In this document: one piece after another, positions 11,664-21,726 of the stretch
Numbering within the stretch: the stretch's first letter is position 1
Layout of the letters: every line of letters starts with the position of its first letter
From: Pigmentiphaga litoralis
GTDB lineage: Bacteria; Pseudomonadota; Gammaproteobacteria; Burkholderiales; Burkholderiaceae_B
DNA length: 64,000 bases
Assembly: GCF_013408655.1 (NCBI RefSeq)
Contig: NZ_JACCBP010000001.1
Location: forward strand, 3,224,001-3,288,000
Direction: 5' to 3'
Notes under the pieces: generated by a model
Databases searched by the model: none
What the model was told of the DNA's origin: nothing
What the model saw: only the letters and a program-made list of their open reading frames with translations
Position numbers and translations under genes: made by a program

Positions 11664-11990
11664 CAGACCGATTGGAAATTTGAAGTGTGTTAAGCAAAGG
11701 CGGCATCACGCAAGGACGCCCGGTCTACCATCGACCGGCAATACACGCAACAAAAAATAAGCACTAAATCAAAATCGGGCTTTATCTACAAAATTTCGAG
11801 GCGTAGTTTCTCAACTTCTTCTCCAACAATCGACTTAGCACTCCAATAAGAATCCTAGTCTGTTCTCATTAAGCCTGACTTTAGCGACTTGCTAGGTCGC
11901 AAATTTGCTTCATGAGCCTCCGACTCGTATTCGTACGGTTAAAACTGCTGCTGCCGAAAAGCGGGAACGATCGAAGATAGCGGGGAAAAA
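11664..11990 (+). other. AT-rich intergenic stretch at left edge of island
   Basis: 327 bp without a supported gene. Base composition drops sharply compared with the hydrolase gene on the left and stays low to about 14790. AT-rich tracts near 11745-11800 could hold the promoter of the three-gene cluster that follows. No tRNA, integrase or convincing att repeat is visible. Confidence 0.5.
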
Positions 11991-12770
11991 ATGAGCAAAC
12001 TCTTGGTTGTTTTTTGCTTTCTCCTTACCGCATTGAGTTATCTGAGAGATGTGCATTCGCAGCCATGCCCTATTTTCAACTCGTCACCTCAGGCGTTGAG
12101 ATATCTCCGTGAGAATCAACAGATTTATCCGCGGACCACTGCGGAGTGTTTCGACCGGGCGCTTGTTACACCTCCTTCACTCGGAACTGCCATAGACGCC
12201 GAAACATGGCGCACCTATCTCTGGGAAGGAGCACAACTTCTCCATAGAATGGCTGATTCGTCGGATTTTGGACCGACTGCAAGAAGAGAATATAAAAATT
12301 CTGAGCTGAAAACTTTAGCGCTATACAGAGACAAGACCCTTGATAGGCTACGTGCGGAATCTACCAAAAAAAATCCGCTTGGCGTGGAGGCGTTGCAAAC
12401 TGATTACGCCAAGGGGGTCGACGCAGAATCGAATGTCTTCTGGCAATTGTCGTTGCAGGAAACTAAAGGCCTGCTGAATTTGCAGAACTTTCTTTCAAAT
12501 CTCGATCCGGCACATCTCTTAGATCTGACAGCGGTTCGATGGTTAGAAGCCGTCCGCACTTGCCCCAACTGGGTTCCCGCTGCTGTCAAACCACTGCCTG
12601 ATTATACCAATGGTTGGTGCAAGGCAGACTGCCGAGAACACTTCACAACTGTAGCCGACAAGCTCAATGTATGGATGTCAAACATCCCCGAGCGCGAAAC
12701 CCTGCAATCATATAGAGCACTGAAAAAGCGCGCGATAGAAACCAAGAAATTTTGCAAGAATGGCGAGTGA
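11991..12770 (+). CDS. Unknown exported protein, first gene of AT-rich cluster
   Basis: 259 residues. An N-terminal Sec signal (LLVVFCFLLTALSYL, cleavage likely after VHS-Q near 23) leads to a mostly helical soluble domain. Mature cysteines include C26 and a C-terminal group near residues 190-256 (TCPNW, WCKADC, FCKNG), which could form disulfides in the periplasm. No family was recognised. It is 11 bp before the next gene, and base composition is far more AT-rich than the flanking genome, indicating horizontal acquisition. By position it could be a periplasmic immunity or accessory protein for the peptidoglycan-active enzyme encoded third in the cluster; that is inference. Confidence 0.75.
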   Translation: MSKLLVVFCFLLTALSYLRDVHSQPCPIFNSSPQALRYLRENQQIYPRTTAECFDRALVTPPSLGTAIDAETWRTYLWEGAQLLHRMADSSDFGPTARREYKNSELKTLALYRDKTLDRLRAESTKKNPLGVEALQTDYAKGVDAESNVFWQLSLQETKGLLNLQNFLSNLDPAHLLDLTAVRWLEAVRTCPNWVPAAVKPLPDYTNGWCKADCREHFTTVADKLNVWMSNIPERETLQSYRALKKRAIETKKFCKNGE

Positions 12771-12781
12771 GGGATTGAGCG

Positions 12782-13663
12782 ATGACAAAAATTTTAATTC
12801 TACTATTGCTTGTATTTCAAAATTCAGCTCTTTCCGCGGGCGAAGCCGTGAAAACTGAGGTAGCCGAACAAATCGTCGGAAAAACATTGAACATTGCCCT
12901 TGCGGAAAACGTTAGTGACGGCGTACAGGTCACACTGTCAATGGACGAAACCGACTACATTCCTGGACCAATCTCTGGACGAATAATAGTCAAAAACACA
13001 AGAAATGAGCGATTAACCATTAGCGACTGGAATGTTTATATCATCGGATCATTATCTTCGCTGTACAGCCAAAGTAAGATAACCACTGGCGAGATTAAAG
13101 TGGAGCCGAACTCTGCATACACATTGGATGTTTACCTTCGGCCGGGCAGAAAACCCACCATGTTTGAACATATAACTTTTCGTTCAGGCCCGACCAAGAT
13201 GACAGTCAACCTAATCTATTTCGCGGACGGCATGAAAAGTGGTCAAACCAACTACTCCTTGCAAGCCGAGCTTAAAACATCGCCCTTTTACACTATTGCT
13301 GGGGGCTTTTTTGGCGCGTTGTTGCTGATCGTATTTGTCATAGTTTCCAAAATAATCTATGTCGCTCAGAAAAACGAGCTGACTGCATTAATTTCTAAAC
13401 TTCCATTCTTATGTGTCAAGTGGTTCATCGTTTCCATTGCGTACGCCGTGAACGGGTTGATAGTTACTATTCTTTTAATTACCCTTTCTGCGGGATTAAT
13501 GGCTTTCCAGCTTCCGATATCTTTCAAGCTACAAGATTTCAGCGGGGGTCTTATCGTCGGTCTTTTCAGCATTACTTTGGGAAAGTTTCTGGCGGATAAG
13601 CTGGCGGTGGCCATCCCAAGTCGTTCGCTCAACGATACAAATTCAACTCAGGCGGTTCAATAA
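12782..13663 (+). CDS. Unknown membrane protein with exported beta domain
   Basis: 293 residues. A signal peptide (ILILLLLVFQNSALSAG) precedes a beta-rich, Ig-like periplasmic domain of about 140 residues with a PISGRIIVKNTRNERLTI pattern. Three hydrophobic helices follow (about 178-198, 217-240 and 250-275) and a polar tail. No family was recognised. The start lies 11 bp after the preceding gene, so the pair is co-transcribed. Codon use is AT-rich like its neighbours. A membrane protein with a periplasmic domain next to a wall hydrolase is compatible with immunity or a receptor function, but nothing in the sequence proves either. Confidence 0.75.
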   Translation: MTKILILLLLVFQNSALSAGEAVKTEVAEQIVGKTLNIALAENVSDGVQVTLSMDETDYIPGPISGRIIVKNTRNERLTISDWNVYIIGSLSSLYSQSKITTGEIKVEPNSAYTLDVYLRPGRKPTMFEHITFRSGPTKMTVNLIYFADGMKSGQTNYSLQAELKTSPFYTIAGGFFGALLLIVFVIVSKIIYVAQKNELTALISKLPFLCVKWFIVSIAYAVNGLIVTILLITLSAGLMAFQLPISFKLQDFSGGLIVGLFSITLGKFLADKLAVAIPSRSLNDTNSTQAVQ

Positions 13664-13744
13664 AGCTATCCCAATCTACGTTTTTTGCGTTTACTTGTTT
13701 GGCAGTAGCTCCTCAACGTCAACATTTTTTGAAAGAGCAAAATC

Positions 13745-14518
13745 ATGAAAACAACGCATATTCCAACAGCTGTTTTAAACGAGCTAACTTTCACTGGCGA
13801 ACAGTCAACTGGCTCGTCAGGACTTGCAGTAAAACGACTTCAGGAGTGGCTTTGCTATCATGACTGCTCGACACCAATAGACAGCGATTTTGGCCCAGCA
13901 ACTCAAGCCGCATTAAAGAATTTCCAATTGGCTAAAGCATTTGATCCCACAGGAATTTTAACGGAAGAAACCTGGAACATTTTGGTGTCTCCTATGGCAA
14001 GCGCACTTTCGGATGGAGTTGGACAAAATCTCGGTGATCGTGTTGGAAGTATCGCTGCAAATCATCTAGCAGTTCATCCCCGGGAGTTTGGAGGCGATAA
14101 TTGTGGGCCTTGGGTTCGTATTTATACGGGCGGGCACGAAGGTGCTAAGTGGAAGTGGTGCGCTGGATTTGCCAGCTTCGTTGTTCATCAAGCAGCGGAC
14201 GAACTGGAAGTTCCATCTCCGATTAGGGGTTCATTAAGCTGCGATGAGCTTGCGACGCAGGCAAAAGACGCCGGAAGGTTTGTACAAGGATCAGGACTAT
14301 TTGTTAATTCCGATAGGAAGCTTCAGCTCGGAAACTCGTTTATTTTTTTAATTCGGGAGTCGGCTAACGATTGGAGTCATGCTGGCCTTGGGTTTTCCCT
14401 CACTGGTCAGGTTTTTAGTACGATAGAAGGGAACACCAACGACGTAGGCAGTGCGGAAGGATACGAGGTTTGCGCCAGGACTCGGTCTGTATCGAAAGCC
14501 GACTTCATTGGCTTGTAA
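13745..14518 (+). CDS. Peptidoglycan-binding domain fused to CHAP-like amidase/endopeptidase
   Basis: 257 residues without a signal peptide. Residues 20-80 form a PG_binding_1 domain (GLAVKRLQEWL, DSDFGPATQAALKNFQ, GILTEETW). Residues 110-257 look like a CHAP/NlpC-type cysteine hydrolase: catalytic Cys139 in KWCAGFASF, His212 in DWSHAGLGF, and a polar third residue in IEGNTN (228-231). The predicted activity is cleavage of peptidoglycan stem peptides. It is third in the AT-rich cluster, 81 bp after the membrane protein gene. Lack of an export signal suggests delivery by a secretion apparatus, by lysis, or a non-wall substrate. The fold of the C-terminal part is inferred from motifs. Confidence 0.78.
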   Translation: MKTTHIPTAVLNELTFTGEQSTGSSGLAVKRLQEWLCYHDCSTPIDSDFGPATQAALKNFQLAKAFDPTGILTEETWNILVSPMASALSDGVGQNLGDRVGSIAANHLAVHPREFGGDNCGPWVRIYTGGHEGAKWKWCAGFASFVVHQAADELEVPSPIRGSLSCDELATQAKDAGRFVQGSGLFVNSDRKLQLGNSFIFLIRESANDWSHAGLGFSLTGQVFSTIEGNTNDVGSAEGYEVCARTRSVSKADFIGL

Positions 14519-14953
14519 ATGGACTCGATCGTCTCAAGTAACTCTGGCGGCCGTGTTAATCCGAACAACAGACAGCATTGGCTGATGTTCCGAATTGTGC
14601 TAATTCAACTTAGGTCTGCGTATATAAGGGCGTTGATTCCCGCCGGTCTTAGCGTGAAGAAGATTGATGCGCGCAACCCTGCGACCGTGAGCCCCGTAAC
14701 AGACTCAAACTTTTGGACGATATCTCTCAACCGATTGACGGAATAGTCTAAGCACGCTGCCTCGCGGTCTGGCGGCGCATCTTCACTGTCGGGGCACCTC
14801 TTACACCATTCGATTACCTCCTTGGCCAGCGTGTCGGCCGAGTGGATGGGTGCGTCCTGCAGATTCCATTCGACCGCACCAGGAGTCCCGTGCCAGCGAG
14901 CGCGCGGCTCGTCCCATCTGCTCAGTTTTGCGACTCACCAAAGGGAGTTGGCA
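14519..14953 (+). other. Intergenic transition from AT-rich island to GC-rich DNA
   Basis: 435 bp without a supported gene. The left part is AT-rich and contains only a 75-codon frame abutting the previous stop, with no ribosome-binding site and no recognisable domain. Composition rises to the genome norm after about 14760. The last bases provide AGGGAG ahead of the ATG at 14954. Confidence 0.45.
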
Positions 14954-17812
14954 ATGACGATGCTGTTGATCAAGGGATCTACCGGGGCGGAAGTTGGCAG
15001 GTTGGCCGAGGCGCTGTTGCGCGAACTCGGTGACGACGCTGGCGACTTTCCGAATCTTGCAGGCATGGAAACGATCGATGCGGACTTCGACGCCGCGATC
15101 CGCCGATGGCAGGCGGGGGTCGGGCTGATTGCCGATGGCGTCGTCGGTCCGTTGTGCCAGGTGCTGCTGGAAATGATTCCGCCGCAGGGCGGCAAGTTCG
15201 CCAGCACGCCGCTGACCGTGGCTGCCGTCAGCCGGTTGTTCCCGGCAACCAAGCCGGCCAACATCGCGCGCTACCTGCCCTACATCGAAGCGGCGCTGGG
15301 CGTGTGCGACCTGACCGATCCGCCGATGGTGCTGGGGGCGCTGGGCACGATCCGGTCCGAGTCCGAGGGCTTCGTGCCCATTACCGAATTTCCGTCCAAG
15401 TTCAACAGCGACCCGGGCGCGGCGCCGTTCAATCGGTATGACGGCCGGCTGGGCAACGATGTGCCGGGTGACGGCTTTCGCTATCGCGGCCGCGGTTTCG
15501 TCCAGTTGACGGGCAAGTTCAACTATCGGAAATACGGCGCCAAGATCGACTTTCCGCTGGAGACGCTGCCCGACCTGGCAAATGCGCCCGAAGTGGCCGC
15601 CTTGCTGTTGGCGACCTTTCTGGGCGACGTGGCCGGCAAGTTCCGGCCCGCGTGCGAAAAGGGCGACCTTGCCACCGCGCGCAAGTGCGTCAATGGCGGC
15701 AGCCACGGGCTGGACCGGTTCCGCAGCGTGTTCGCGCTGGCCAAGACGGCATGGAGCACGGAGACGCATGGCGTGGGCGCAGGCAAGTCGCCCACGTTCG
15801 CGTCGCGCCGAACGTCGTTGACCAGCGCCAAGACCAAGAAGGACACCGACGACCTGCGTGACCGGCTGTACCAGCCGGGTGCGATCAGCCTGCCCAATGA
15901 ATTCCCGTCTTCCAGTGACGTGCAGACCTATCTGGCGCGCTACACGCAGGTCGGACTGATACTGGACCAGGGACGCGAAGGCGCGTGCACCGGCTTCGGA
16001 TTGTCTTGCGTCATCAACTATCTGCGGTGGATCAAGTCCGGGCATCCCGACAAGGATTTCATCTCGGTCAGCCCGCGCATGCTGTACACCCTGGCCCGCC
16101 GCTACGACGAATACGAAGGCGAGAACTACGAAGGATCGAGCTGCCGCGGCGCGATCAAGGCGTGGTTCAGCCACGGGGTCTGCCTGGAAGACGACTGGCC
16201 CTACTCTCCCGAAAAATCCAACCCGCCGCATTACGGCTACGCCAAGCGCGCGGCCAGTACTACGCTGGGCGTCTATTACCGTGTCGAGACGCGGTCCATC
16301 ACGGACATGCAGGCGGCGCTGCGACAGCACGGCGCGGTCTTCGTATCGGCATTCACGCACGATGGCTGGCTGGATGTGCCGGATACGGGCGGTTGCCCGA
16401 CCAGCCATCAGGACCTGCCCGAGATCGAATTCGATGGCCGCCCCTCGCAGGTCGACGGCCATGCGTTTGCGCTGGTCGGCTTCGATGCGCGCGGGTTCAT
16501 CGTGCAGAATTCCTGGGGCCCGAGTTGGGGCGCGGGCGGCTTTGCGATCCTGTCGTATCGCGACTGGCTGGCCAACGCGATGGATGCGTGGGTGGTGGCG
16601 CTGGGCGTCGCGGGCGTCATCGAGGGCCGGCTGGTCGCATCGAATCGCGATGGCAGTGGTGTCGCCGGCGCAAGTATCGACAAGAGCAAATGGTGGGATG
16701 CCTCGGTGGCCTATCAGCACAGCATTGTGCTGGGCAATGATGGCCGCGTGATGCGGTATGTAAGCGAAGACGAAAAGCCGCGCAAGCTGCAGCAGCAGGT
16801 CTATGCCCTGCCCGACCAATGGTTCCGCACGACACCCGCGCAACAGAAGAAGCGGCTGGTGCTGTATGCGCACGGCGGTCTGAACAGCGAAAAGGCGGCG
16901 ATCGACCGGGCCAGCGCCATGGGCCGGTACTTCGTCGCCAACGGCTGCTACCCGCTTTTCCTGGTCTGGAAAACCGGGCTGCTGGAATCGTTGCAGGGCA
17001 TGCTGTCCGAATCGGTGCGGACCCCGGCGGCCCGGGGCGATCTGGCCGGCACGTGGACGGATGCATCGGACGCCCTGATCGAAAAGACCTTTGCCCGCCC
17101 CCTGGCGCGCCCGATATGGTCAGAGATGAAAGAAAACGCGGAGCTGGCCTTTGCCCCGCGGCGCGGCGGCGAACTGCTGCTCGACGCGCTGGCGGCTTTG
17201 GTGGAGACCTGGGGCGATCAATTCGAATTGCATCTGGTCGGGCATTCGGCCGGGTCGATCATCCTTGGCCATTTGCTCAGTGCACTGCGCATGCGGGGCG
17301 CCCTGGCCGATCGCGTCACCTCGATCCATCTGTACGCGCCGGCATGCACCGTGCCGTTTGCCAACAAGCATTACGCCAGCGACTCGCGCTTCATGAACCG
17401 TCTCTTTCTGGACGTGCTGTCGGATGAGGTGGAACGCGCCGATACGGTGTCCGCCATCTACCGCAAGTCGCTGCTGTACCTGGTGTCCAATGCGCTGGAA
17501 GCGGATCTGCGCACGCCCATCCTTGGCCTGTCGAACATCTGGAACCCGGACTACTCAGGATGGGACGGATCATCGGATACCGCCGAGGCGCTGTCGGCAT
17601 GGCGCAAGGCCTTCGATGATGCCGAGGGCAAGGTGCTGGATGTAGTCGACACGGCCAAGGTGCGCGTGGGCACTGAAGCCAACGGACAAGCGGCCCAGCA
17701 GAAGGCCGCGCACGGCAGCTTCGACAACGATGTTGCCGTGGTCGCCCGCACGCTGGAGCGCATTACCGGGGGCGCACTGTCCACACCGGTCGACGAACTG
17801 CGGGGGTTCTAG
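14954..17812 (+). CDS. Four-module hydrolase: peptidoglycan-binding, GH19, papain-like protease, serine hydrolase
   Basis: 952 residues; ATG 14954 has AGGGAG 6-7 nt upstream. Residues 3-75 are a PG_binding_1 domain. Residues 85-270 are a GH19 chitinase/lysozyme: candidate acids E136 (RSESEGF) and E145 (ITEF), the family motif YRGRGFVQLTG at 177-187, and VNGG near 246-249. Residues 310-555 are a C1A papain-like domain: Q339 and C345 (DQGREGACTGFG), H503 (DGHAFALVGF) and N519 (QNSWGPSWG). Residues 630-850 are an alpha/beta hydrolase: YAHGG at 638-642 and GHSAGS with Ser765. No signal peptide or membrane helix is seen. Its stop overlaps the patatin start (TAGTG). All catalytic residues are intact, so four activities against wall, protein and ester bonds are plausible in one chain. 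Confidence 0.85.
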   Translation: MTMLLIKGSTGAEVGRLAEALLRELGDDAGDFPNLAGMETIDADFDAAIRRWQAGVGLIADGVVGPLCQVLLEMIPPQGGKFASTPLTVAAVSRLFPATKPANIARYLPYIEAALGVCDLTDPPMVLGALGTIRSESEGFVPITEFPSKFNSDPGAAPFNRYDGRLGNDVPGDGFRYRGRGFVQLTGKFNYRKYGAKIDFPLETLPDLANAPEVAALLLATFLGDVAGKFRPACEKGDLATARKCVNGGSHGLDRFRSVFALAKTAWSTETHGVGAGKSPTFASRRTSLTSAKTKKDTDDLRDRLYQPGAISLPNEFPSSSDVQTYLARYTQVGLILDQGREGACTGFGLSCVINYLRWIKSGHPDKDFISVSPRMLYTLARRYDEYEGENYEGSSCRGAIKAWFSHGVCLEDDWPYSPEKSNPPHYGYAKRAASTTLGVYYRVETRSITDMQAALRQHGAVFVSAFTHDGWLDVPDTGGCPTSHQDLPEIEFDGRPSQVDGHAFALVGFDARGFIVQNSWGPSWGAGGFAILSYRDWLANAMDAWVVALGVAGVIEGRLVASNRDGSGVAGASIDKSKWWDASVAYQHSIVLGNDGRVMRYVSEDEKPRKLQQQVYALPDQWFRTTPAQQKKRLVLYAHGGLNSEKAAIDRASAMGRYFVANGCYPLFLVWKTGLLESLQGMLSESVRTPAARGDLAGTWTDASDALIEKTFARPLARPIWSEMKENAELAFAPRRGGELLLDALAALVETWGDQFELHLVGHSAGSIILGHLLSALRMRGALADRVTSIHLYAPACTVPFANKHYASDSRFMNRLFLDVLSDEVERADTVSAIYRKSLLYLVSNALEADLRTPILGLSNIWNPDYSGWDGSSDTAEALSAWRKAFDDAEGKVLDVVDTAKVRVGTEANGQAAQQKAAHGSFDNDVAVVARTLERITGGALSTPVDELRGF

Positions 17813-20800
17813 TGAAGCGGCTCGACACCTTGGTGGACCGGCGCCGCAAGATCCTGCAGGACCCGGACCTGCCGGAAGGGCATGACAACAAGTGGGGCCT
17901 GGCGCTGTCAGGGGGAGGCATCCGCAGCGCGACCTTTGCGCTGGGCCTGGTCACCGCACTGGCCAAGAAAAAGATGCTGCTGCGCTTCGACTTGCTGTCG
18001 ACGGTGTCGGGCGGCGGGTATGCGGGGGCGACGATAGGCCGGCTGTTCGATCGGGTGCGGGCCAAGGCAGCCGTGGTGGATGCCGACAAGGGATCGACGG
18101 GCGATGCGGCCCGCGCGGTGCAGGAAGGCCTGGCGCGCGACGAAGCCACATGGACGACGTGGTGGCTGCGCGCCAACGGGCGGTATCTGATTCCCAGCGG
18201 CGTGCTCGATGGCACGTTGATCGTGGCGCTGTATGTGCGCAACGTGTTGGCCGTGCATTTCGAATTGGCGCTGCTGGCCCTGCTGGCGGGCATCTTCCTG
18301 GCCTGCGTGAACCTGTTCGCGTGGACAGGGCTGGCGGCGCTGGGATGGATAGGCGGGGATACCTTCTTCGACGCCTTTCGCTGGCTGTCGCCGTGGCTGC
18401 CGGTGCCGTGGATTGCGCTGGCCGTGTTCACCGTGATCGGGGCCATCCAGACGTCGGCCTTCTGGTGTTTTCCGTATGTGCGGAAACGAGGCGCGTCGCA
18501 CCGCGCATTCGCCGTCGTGATCACGGCCATGATCGCGATCGTGGCCCTGCACCCGCTGTTCGACACGGCCCCCGGGCGCCCCGGCAGTGTGGTGCGCGAA
18601 GGGCTGTGGGTGACCATGGTCGCGCTGATGTTCTGCTGGCTGCTGGGCGCGCTGTATGCGCAGCGCATCTGGATCAAGGCGCGCCGCCGGCTGCCGGATG
18701 CCAGTTCGGCCGCGGCCGATGTGCTCAGTGTACTGACGCAGCGCCTGTCGAATACCTTTCGATGGGGCATTGCCTTTCTGGCGCTGGGCATTGTCGAACG
18801 ATTCGCGTGGCATCTGGCGTTCGAGCCCAGTGGCTTTGACACCGCCACGGTCGGCATCGTGCTGACCATCGTGGCGCCGGCCTTGCGGGCCGCCCTGCCC
18901 TTTGCATCGCGCTTGACGAATCCCACCGCAGGCGTGCGCCTCGGGCTGCTGATTGGCCGCGGACTGGGCTATCTGATCGTCGCGCTGCTGGCGGCGTTCT
19001 GGATGTCGCTGGCCTATCGCGCGGTGCTGGGCGCGTACTTCGATCGCACCACGCTGGCCTTCTGGCCGGCGCTGACCGTGGCGGTGTTGCTGATGCTGCC
19101 GATGGCGATCTACCTGGCGGTGACCGGACGCAATATCGAATTCCTGAATCTGTCGTCGCTGCATTCCTTCTACCGCGCGCGCCTGGTGCGCAGCTATCTG
19201 GGCGCGGCCAATTACCGCCGCTTCGAAGCGGCGGGCCCGCTCGACGAAGGCACGCTCACCCCGGTCCCTGCCGACCTGCCGCTGGGCAAGGTCGTGAGCG
19301 AAGTCGAAGAAGTGCATCTGGATGATGACGTCGCGATCAACGACTACCGGCCCATGGATGCCGGAGGTCCGGTGCACCTGATCACCATGTGCGTGAACCA
19401 GACCAATGATCCGCGCGGCGGCATCTTCAACCGCGACCGCCAGGGCCTGCCGCTGACCATCGTGTCGGGCGGCTACATGCGCGAGGGCATCGAGAACTGG
19501 TCCGAGATGCGGCGCGAAGAACCGTTGAGCCTGGGAACCTTCATCGCCATTTCAGGCGCAGCCATCGCGCCGGCATTGGGTGCGCTGACGCGGGGCGGCA
19601 TCTCGGCGCTGGCCATGTTCGCGGGCTTGCGGCTGGGGTATTGGTGGAGCAACGAGCGCCGCAATGGCGAGGACACCCGGTCGGTGCACGCGTGGACCGG
19701 CAAATCGCGACGCATACTGAACGAATTGCGCGGCCGCTTCCAGGGCACGCAAGGACCCGACTGGTTCCTGACCGACGGCGGGCATTTCGAGAACACGGGC
19801 GCCTACGCGCTGCTGGCCGAGCGCTGCCGGGTCATCGTCGTTTCCGACGCGGGCGCGGATCCGACCTATGCATTCGGCGACCTTGAGAATCTGGTACGCA
19901 AGGCGCGGATCGACCTGAATGCCGACATCCGTTTCATGCGGCCCCGCAATCCGCCCGACCTGCGCCTGAGTCCGCCCGTGGCCGAACTGGCGCAGTTCGG
20001 CACCATTGATGATCTGGCCTCGTCCAAGAGCAATGCGTGCATGGCGCTGGCCACCGTCATCTACGCCGAAGATCCGCTGCACCCCGGCATCCTGATCTAC
20101 ATGAAGCCGAATTTTTTCATCGGCCTGCCGGTGGACCTCGTCAACTTCAAGGCCGCCAATCCCTACTTTCCGCAAGAGCCGACGTCGGATCAGTTCTTTT
20201 CGGAGTCGCAATGGGAAAGCTACTTCCTGCTTGGACAGGAGATGGGCAAGGCGTTGTCGATCGATCTGTTGAACTGCATTGCCGCGGCGCCCGATGCCTA
20301 CTTCGTGCAAGACACGAGCTCGACCCTCGACAAGGCGTTGACGCGTGACAAGAACGCCGTGCCGGCCGGCGCGCCTGCGACACCGATGCAGGCGATCTCG
20401 CGCATTCCGGCGCGTATCGCCGTGTCGACGGTAAAGGCGACAGTCGGACTGACCGCGGTCGCGGCCATCGGTGCATCGGCCTGGCAGGGCCTGGAAGCCT
20501 GGCGCACCGCGCGGGAAAAGAGCGTCGATACCGAACGCACGGCGCTTTCCAGCCTGTCGTCGACCTGGCTGGAAACGCAGCGAGCTCGCGCCTCGGACAC
20601 GCCGCAACGCGTCGAAGCCGTGTCGCGTCTGGCGACCACGCTGCTGTATACCGCCGACCGTATCTGCGCCCACGGGCAGGCCGAGTGGTTCCAGCAGCCC
20701 GGGCTCGCGCGCGAAATCGCGATCGACGCTTTTGCGGAATGCCGCAAGCTCGATGTGCTGGCGTCGCGGTCGTGCGCCGTGCTGCTGCAGTCGGTCGGCA

Positions 20801-21726
20801 ATCCGGCCAGCCGCACCGTGAACACCTGCCTTGGCCCCCTGCTTGAACGGCCGCCGCAGCGCTACGAAACCTACTGGGCCTACGACTACACCACCCGGGC
20901 ATCGCCGCATCTGCTGCACCCGTGCGACCGGTACCGGCAGGACCTGCGCCTGGAAGCCATGCCGGTCACCATCACCGATGCGGTCGACCCACCCGCGGCC
21001 GGATGCCGGCTGGGCACATTCGCGTTCGGCGTGCCCGGCGAGGCCATCGTCCGCACGGTGATGGCGGGCGTCAACGACGGCTTCCAGTACCTGCAACGCC
21101 TGGCCGGCCTGAACACGCACGATCTGTGGCTGAGCCGGTTCGCGCGGGACAGAGGCAGCGACATTGCCATCGCGGACAGCAGTCCGGCTGCCGCAGCGCC
21201 TGCGCCGTCGGCCCTGGAGCCGTTTCCCGCCACCGACGCCAGGGTCGTCGCGTCTGCCAGCGTGCCCGCACCAGCGGCCCTGCCCGCCAGGCCCATCGCC
21301 CCGCCTCCACCCACCGTCATCGATGCCGAAGCGCGCGCTGCGTGCAGTGATGTCGCCATCTTCGTGCAGGTCTACGACCGCGAATCGTATGACGCGGCCC
21401 TGCGGCTGCGAGGACCGTGGTCGGCCATTCAGGCGCGCTTCCAGCCGATCGAGAACGTGCAGCAATCGGCCGAGGCGCGCGGCCGCCCCAACCTGACACC
21501 GGTTACCGAACCGACGATCCGCTATCACCGCAACGATGCCGCGGCATGCGCCGCTTACCTGTGGCCCGTGGCGCGGCAGACGTTGACCTTGCCGGGGCCG
21601 GTCACGCCTCGCCCGCTGGCGGCGCGCTTTCCCAGCACGCCGTCCACCATCGAAGTCTGGCTGCCGCCCCGGACAGCCATCACCACCCGGGAGGCGGCTG
21701 CAAAAACTTTAACAAACGGTCGATAG
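17812..21726 (+). CDS. Large membrane patatin-like phospholipase
   Basis: 1304 residues from a GTG start overlapping the previous stop by one base, with GGGGG 5 nt upstream. The patatin oxyanion motif SGGGIRSA is at 33-40, the nucleophile Ser66 in TVSGGGY, and the catalytic Asp655 in TDGGHFENTG. Between Ser and Asp sits a long insert with about eight hydrophobic helices (about 133-435), and another helix lies near 868-890. The last 400 residues form an unrecognised Cys-containing domain interrupted by an Ala/Pro linker (about 1125-1165). It is predicted to hydrolyse phospholipids at the membrane. The overlap with the four-module hydrolase gene indicates co-translation and joint function. Confidence 0.85.
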   Translation: MKRLDTLVDRRRKILQDPDLPEGHDNKWGLALSGGGIRSATFALGLVTALAKKKMLLRFDLLSTVSGGGYAGATIGRLFDRVRAKAAVVDADKGSTGDAARAVQEGLARDEATWTTWWLRANGRYLIPSGVLDGTLIVALYVRNVLAVHFELALLALLAGIFLACVNLFAWTGLAALGWIGGDTFFDAFRWLSPWLPVPWIALAVFTVIGAIQTSAFWCFPYVRKRGASHRAFAVVITAMIAIVALHPLFDTAPGRPGSVVREGLWVTMVALMFCWLLGALYAQRIWIKARRRLPDASSAAADVLSVLTQRLSNTFRWGIAFLALGIVERFAWHLAFEPSGFDTATVGIVLTIVAPALRAALPFASRLTNPTAGVRLGLLIGRGLGYLIVALLAAFWMSLAYRAVLGAYFDRTTLAFWPALTVAVLLMLPMAIYLAVTGRNIEFLNLSSLHSFYRARLVRSYLGAANYRRFEAAGPLDEGTLTPVPADLPLGKVVSEVEEVHLDDDVAINDYRPMDAGGPVHLITMCVNQTNDPRGGIFNRDRQGLPLTIVSGGYMREGIENWSEMRREEPLSLGTFIAISGAAIAPALGALTRGGISALAMFAGLRLGYWWSNERRNGEDTRSVHAWTGKSRRILNELRGRFQGTQGPDWFLTDGGHFENTGAYALLAERCRVIVVSDAGADPTYAFGDLENLVRKARIDLNADIRFMRPRNPPDLRLSPPVAELAQFGTIDDLASSKSNACMALATVIYAEDPLHPGILIYMKPNFFIGLPVDLVNFKAANPYFPQEPTSDQFFSESQWESYFLLGQEMGKALSIDLLNCIAAAPDAYFVQDTSSTLDKALTRDKNAVPAGAPATPMQAISRIPARIAVSTVKATVGLTAVAAIGASAWQGLEAWRTAREKSVDTERTALSSLSSTWLETQRARASDTPQRVEAVSRLATTLLYTADRICAHGQAEWFQQPGLAREIAIDAFAECRKLDVLASRSCAVLLQSVGNPASRTVNTCLGPLLERPPQRYETYWAYDYTTRASPHLLHPCDRYRQDLRLEAMPVTITDAVDPPAAGCRLGTFAFGVPGEAIVRTVMAGVNDGFQYLQRLAGLNTHDLWLSRFARDRGSDIAIADSSPAAAAPAPSALEPFPATDARVVASASVPAPAALPARPIAPPPPTVIDAEARAACSDVAIFVQVYDRESYDAALRLRGPWSAIQARFQPIENVQQSAEARGRPNLTPVTEPTIRYHRNDAAACAAYLWPVARQTLTLPGPVTPRPLAARFPSTPSTIEVWLPPRTAITTREAAAKTLTNGR

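Follow-up and report, generated by a model that had tools for sequence, protein, structure and literature searches.

The window analysed here, a 64,000-nucleotide stretch of a Pigmentiphaga genome, contains two consecutive genes that overlap by a single base (TAGTG), as stated in the original prediction made from the letters of this DNA. The first gene encodes a 952-amino-acid (aa) chain of four parts: a peptidoglycan (PG)-binding-like N-terminus, a GH19 endolysin-like domain, a papain-like protease domain (family C1) and an alpha/beta-hydrolase (ABH) domain. The second gene encodes a 1304-aa patatin with predicted membrane helices (Table 1). Judged from its sequence, the four-part chain is a real fusion and a widespread family without a name.

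The chain and the membrane patatin

The GH19 part of the chain has the fold of its family together with the two catalytic glutamates, and the papain part has the complete set of active-site Gln, Cys, His and Asn. These four residues and the ABH serine S765 are identical in 79 of 79 aligned relatives; E136, E145 and H920 are unchanged in 78, the remaining cell being an alignment gap (the split chain of locus L095 was left out of this count, hence 79 sequences). The structure prediction of the chain is weak in the papain part (mean predicted local distance difference test score, pLDDT, of 61.4; 20 rows), so that sequence is also needed to assign the papain fold. None of the aligned chain starts resembles a signal peptide by a simple hydropathy rule (80 sequences scanned, L093 without its N-terminus), and neither does any of 115 alternative upstream starts. 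Both the intact catalytic residues of four enzyme parts and the missing signal peptide had been read correctly from the single sequence.

The patatin carries the oxyanion motif GGG-R, a nucleophile serine and an aspartate in DG[GA]; its nucleophile motif is S-T-V-S-G rather than GxSxG. The proposed catalytic residues S66 and D655 indeed occupy invariant columns of our alignments (19 of 120 relatives in A2 and 56 in A4, plus the window row). Seven C-terminal cysteines (C952, C977, C988, C1006, C1038, C1178, C1246) are invariant in 20 sequences. The number of helices between the two catalytic residues is even (eight), so both catalytic halves would lie on one side of the membrane; the conserved cysteines suggest that the C-terminus is outside, and the catalytic halves therefore probably face the cytosol. 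With nine helices, the protein most likely stays in the membrane of its producer. Patatin-like phospholipases include immune effectors such as CapV. The window patatin shares with them the GGG-R motif and the Ser-Asp dyad, but differs in the eight helices inserted between its halves and in the C-terminus with conserved cysteines.

Several observations concern patatin relatives elsewhere. At two loci (L172:5440-10122 and L207:4662-9350) a relative is fused in frame with an oxidoreductase, annotated as GMC oxidoreductase in L207 and, by eye, with an N-terminus resembling a flavin adenine dinucleotide (FAD)-binding domain in L172. Plasmid searches returned 20 patatin records, none covering 80%; several plasmid patatins have GMC, di-heme peroxidase or PAP2 genes nearby.

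Table 1. Features of the chain, the patatin and the contractile cluster of the same genomes (positions in the window unless a locus is given).
Feature	Position	Strand	Remarks
952-aa four-part hydrolase chain	14954..17812	+	ATG start, TAG stop
PG-binding-like N-terminus, ~residues 5-75	14966..15178	+	PG_binding_1 17.3 bits on residues 19-67, below cut-off
GH19 endolysin-like domain, residues 81-269	15194..15760	+	E136, E145
Papain-like protease domain, residues 318-553	15905..16612	+	Q339, C345, H503, N519
ABH domain, residues 580-950	16691..17803	+	S765, probable His H920
1304-aa membrane patatin	17812..21726	+	GTG start, one-base overlap with upstream stop
Patatin first half, GGG-R oxyanion motif, S66	17887..18240	+	PF01734 on residues 30-144, 29.4 bits; invariant columns
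Eight predicted membrane helices between patatin halves, ~residues 136-445	18217..19146	+	alignment-averaged hydropathy
Patatin second half, D655 in DGG	19309..20301	+	invariant columns
Ninth predicted membrane helix, ~residues 869-894	20416..20493	+	alignment-averaged hydropathy
Patatin C-terminal region with conserved cysteines, possibly outside inner membrane	20494..21723	+	side inferred from helix count
Extracellular contractile injection system (eCIS)-type contractile cluster	L221, L222 (window genome, C1, ~4.236-4.259 Mb); L223 (P. litoralis)		

The chain as a family and related enzyme combinations

A search of 5.8 billion proteins, with 8000 candidates scored, gave 6533 chain relatives with E-values up to 1e-3; the best 120 listed are 58-97% identical and cover 93-100% of the chain (alignment A1 comprises 19 of these and the window sequence). 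A scan of genomes from 84,980 species yielded 160 relatives, from which 80 loci were retained. The chain is encoded at all 80 fetched loci and is whole in a single frame at 77; contig ends cut it off at two (L069, L093). At L095 (9809-12658), in a Desulfobulbus metagenome-assembled genome (MAG), the chain lies in two frames, from mutation or sequencing error. Since the chain is whole at most loci, retains its residues and has no signal-peptide-like starts, all four parts look selected. The concern that single-domain enzymes had merely been joined by assembly error is excluded by the near-full-length relatives and the whole-chain loci. The source databases label most named rows, both for the chain and for the amidase-ABH-caspase proteins described below, only as 'C1 family peptidase' or 'caspase family protein'.

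Residues 81-269 resemble GH19 phage endolysins (4ok7, 9eoi, 8p8e) in fold and catalytic glutamates, and the chain might on this ground be a domesticated phage lysis enzyme, fused by chance with other hydrolases. Unlike those endolysins, the GH19 domain of the window belongs to a four-part protein encoded in the chromosome. Matches occur in 99 phage records, in none of which they extend over 80% of the chain, and in the 20 rows shown they are confined to the area of the GH19 region; viral contigs yielded a single chain locus, limited to the C1-ABH part, and no patatin locus. Together with the integrity of the chain at nearly all its loci, this makes a phage enzyme highly improbable. None of the 14 plasmid records covers 80% of the chain either. 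The phage, plasmid and viral collections searched thus give no support for descent of the entire chain from a phage or plasmid, and the full chain on a phage or plasmid that would mark a polyvalent protein is absent from them.

Parts of the chain also occur in other combinations. Other genomes, and plasmids that are mainly rhizobial, encode the papain-ABH half lacking GH19, in several regions with related enzymes nearby: an amidase (L205, plasmid), a PG-binding protein whose CHAP match stays below threshold (L212, plasmid), a PG-binding protein directly beside it (L128), or SGNH-caspase fusions beside or near it (plasmids L213 and L214). In L213 (1123-6251, Rhizobium plasmid) the neighbouring genes encode the SGNH-caspase protein, a YEATS-associated helix protein and a trypsin. 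In the annotation of plasmid regions L203, L204 and L208, such a partner is missing. Two Rhizobium plasmids (L206, L211) encode a fusion of the GH19 part with an M15 peptidase; close to one of these fusions lie a patatin from a different family and a papain-like gene with an exported-protein-like start. On a Caballeronia plasmid (L209) the GH19 part comes after an amidase gene. Xylellain (3ois), a Xylella cysteine protease of 291 aa, lacks the other three parts of the chain.

For the patatin we compared 36 contexts (14 from the sample of the order, 20 from chain-bearing genomes with several per genome, the window and the P. litoralis genome G006). A related-enzyme partner is directly adjacent in seven: the four-part chain twice, a PG-binding GH19 protein (L122), a PG-binding protein (L125) and an SGNH protein (L126, L164, L165). 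The remaining 29 contexts show no match to the hidden Markov models used; five of the 36 have less than 1.5 kb on one side.

A second large family has the ABH domain flanked by an amidase and a caspase within a single polypeptide, as in the 993-aa protein of genome G013 (L181:8065-11043). It gave 1177 matches among 8000 scored. All 120 proteins listed (query included) have caspase, ABH and the motif GHSAG, 113 match the amidase model, and none has a signal-peptide-like start; where named, these proteins (P0246-P0365) are mostly called 'caspase family protein'. Caspases are typically intracellular. The ABH domain common to both families points to a constant lipase-like core that is combined with different wall hydrolases and proteases. 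A literature search found nothing on an ABH shared between the two, nor on the neighbouring genes for similar enzymes in other combinations.

Conservation of the pair, neighbouring genes and delivery

Among 11 Pigmentiphaga genomes, the full chain is found in two, the window's own and G006, and G006 retains the overlap with the patatin. Between these two genomes the ratio of nonsynonymous to synonymous substitution rates (dN/dS, Nei-Gojobori script) is 0.069 for the chain and 0.060 for the patatin, compared with 0.062 for the nearby mqo; both genes are under purifying selection. Six other Pigmentiphaga genomes encode an esterase 70-73% identical to the one upstream of the pair, with the pair absent in the stretches fetched; in four of the six a TctC gene (~82%) adjoins the esterase relative. 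Elsewhere the two genes are mostly separate: a patatin relative lies 2.5 kb from the chain at L077 (290 bits) and a distant one 4.9 kb away at L070 (56 bits), 11 of the 80 loci having less than 4 kb of downstream sequence. A patatin relative above 300 bits is present somewhere in the genome in 13 of 19 chain-bearing genomes (hand-chosen from those of the 80 loci, few genera), as against one of 300 sampled genomes of the order, the window genome itself, under either of two scorings (two candidates scored per genome). This co-occurrence is suggestive and is confounded by the relatedness of the genomes. The pairing is a local feature, not conserved beyond Pigmentiphaga: the wide conservation that would have strengthened the original prediction did not materialize, direct adjacency being confined to two Pigmentiphaga species with no partner recurring elsewhere.

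Just upstream of the chain, the window contains a stretch of ~3 kb (11664-14671), mostly AT-rich (43-49% G+C versus ~65%), that is absent in G006. Its genes encode proteins of 259 aa, 293 aa (with membrane helices) and 257 aa (PG-binding and endolysin-like).

The most widely shared gene family near the chain occurs in 12 of 79 loci, at varied positions (mechanical gene calls). Domain scans used the 138 immediate neighbours of the chain loci; genes above 900 aa, and hence the G006 patatin, were left out, as was the fragment of L095's own chain. VgrG, PAAR and tail families, whose recurrence beside the chain had been suggested as a check, are not among the 25 commonest of the 118 Pfam families in this set. 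The window neighbours scanned (9.7-26.7 kb) contain no VgrG, PAAR, cyclase, NucA or trypsin family. Among the first 25 of 35 PADLOC families, mad2 is the commonest match (9 of 138, best 1.5e-18), followed by PDC-S48 (three) and others in two or one, including one NucC; these matches do not clearly indicate a defence island around the chain. At L094 (10507-12772, Desulfobulbaceae MAG), the chain is separated from a second papain gene by two genes related to each other (one of 263 aa and the frame following it, E-value 6e-15) and by a 240-aa gene without clear family; a caspase frame lies upstream.

No named system with this enzyme combination was found in the literature, as originally presumed (most subscription papers lay outside the search). 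Among published proposals, 'System 3' of the conflict systems of Kaur et al. 2020 (PMC7159879) comes closest. Like the chain, System 3 couples proteases with other destructive enzymes, and the L095 locus, with its split chain, recalls System 3 in its Endonuclease_NS and caspase genes. Unlike System 3 as described there, the window neighbours scanned lack the NucA and trypsin core, and no effector-associated domain (EAD) or NTPase part was recognised at the window locus. The words 'patatin' and 'SGNH' are absent from the main text of that paper.

The missing signal peptide had been taken to fit delivery by a secretion machine or action after lysis. The main alternative to a role inside the producer is delivery into rivals: the chain would be an anti-competitor effector, loaded in the host's eCIS-type particles or carried by a type VI secretion system (T6SS) in other hosts, and would destroy the envelope of rivals. 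For the T6SS the proposal fails in the window host, whose genome lacks the marker TssK (PF05936), which contradicts T6SS delivery and a T6SS island there; TssK is also missing from other chain-bearing genomes (absent in 8 of 22, the window's own included, present in 14). TseP, a dual functional T6SS effector by the title of its PDB entry (8xcl), differs from the chain in this respect, and the chain adds papain and lipase-like parts. For the eCIS, the proposal has a candidate machine: the window genome (G000) and G006 both carry an eCIS-type contractile cluster. Sheath, gp19 tube, Pvc16_N and AAA genes are confirmed in G006; the window genome has spike, gp25 and DUF4280-like genes. G088 has a sheath gene with a Pvc16-like neighbour (by eye). 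In G007, a genus member without the pair, 400 kb around the guessed place contain no eCIS genes and also lack the flanking priA. Against the effector proposal, 0.93-1.0 Mb separate this cluster from the two genes, so that the chain is not encoded in or beside it; the fetched cluster loci contain no match to chain or patatin, and cluster queries match nothing at the 80 chain loci. No immunity-like partner recurs in the shared families of these loci, and a nine-helix patatin would be an unlikely cargo. We consider an anti-competitor effector unlikely.

A possible role in cell demolition

Our tentative reading, to which we assign somewhat less than an even chance, is that failure of the inner membrane sets the cytosolic chain to work on wall, protein and lipid, and that the patatin may be what brings this failure about. 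Kept in the cytosol, away from the wall, the chain would be harmless until the membrane fails and would then act on all three substrates. In Pigmentiphaga, the presumably translationally coupled patatin would turn against the inner membrane of its own cell and thereby let the chain reach the wall, acting toward the chain as a holin does toward an endolysin. In the simplest case demolition would proceed in two steps, patatin and then chain, with other means supplying the first step where the genes lie apart. A patatin embedded in the membrane would be easier to reconcile with an attack on the membrane of its producer than with export, and the combined attack on wall, protein and lipid envisaged by the original prediction is plausible. 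The reading starts from the architecture and its conservation, the absence of a signal-peptide-like start, the overlap, the purifying selection and the amidase-ABH-caspase sister family. The even helix count of the patatin, the patatin relatives elsewhere in chain-bearing genomes, the chain-bearing genomes without TssK and the adjacent genes for related enzymes in other combinations also speak for it. Its further elements, namely the enzyme activities, the translational coupling, the topology, the self-directed lysis and a trigger, are those we infer.

Several points weigh against demolition. A patatin is directly adjacent to the chain at one of the 80 loci, that of G006, and a holin-like role can therefore not be general. 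The chain has no visible safety switch and would endanger its owner. The genes flanking it are mostly housekeeping-like (among the 25 commonest Pfam families), and the PADLOC matches give no clear connection to defence. Not every partner seems to be cytosolic: by eye, the start of the L206 papain-like gene resembles that of a protein exported by twin-arginine translocation (Tat). Finally, the eCIS-type cluster keeps an outward role of the chain possible; nothing else links the two.

The housekeeping surroundings and the lack of a recurring partner also agree with a scavenging enzyme, idle in living cells, released by the lysis of siblings and then digesting debris as a source of nutrients, the patatin being a coincidental lipid-remodelling enzyme. 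We hold this to be distinctly improbable, as the patatin overlap is kept in two species with both genes under purifying selection, and as such a function would be hard to select for in single cells.

If the demolition reading is extended to the related combinations, they might form an undescribed class of self-demolition enzymes that unite wall hydrolase, cysteine protease and lipase in one cytosolic polypeptide for programmed cell dismantling. The class would have two widespread forms, GH19-papain-ABH and amidase-ABH-caspase, and split versions (SGNH-caspase, M15-GH19, membrane patatin). Such a class is rather doubtful, somewhat less so than the effector proposal. If true, many environmental proteobacteria would encode cell demolition in a single chain, with papain and caspase able to replace each other; bacterial caspases would be linked to direct attack on wall and lipid, and bacterial programmed death would become testable with a single gene. 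Independent of the mechanism, the chain is a natural source of coupled hydrolases with predicted activities on wall, protein and lipid.
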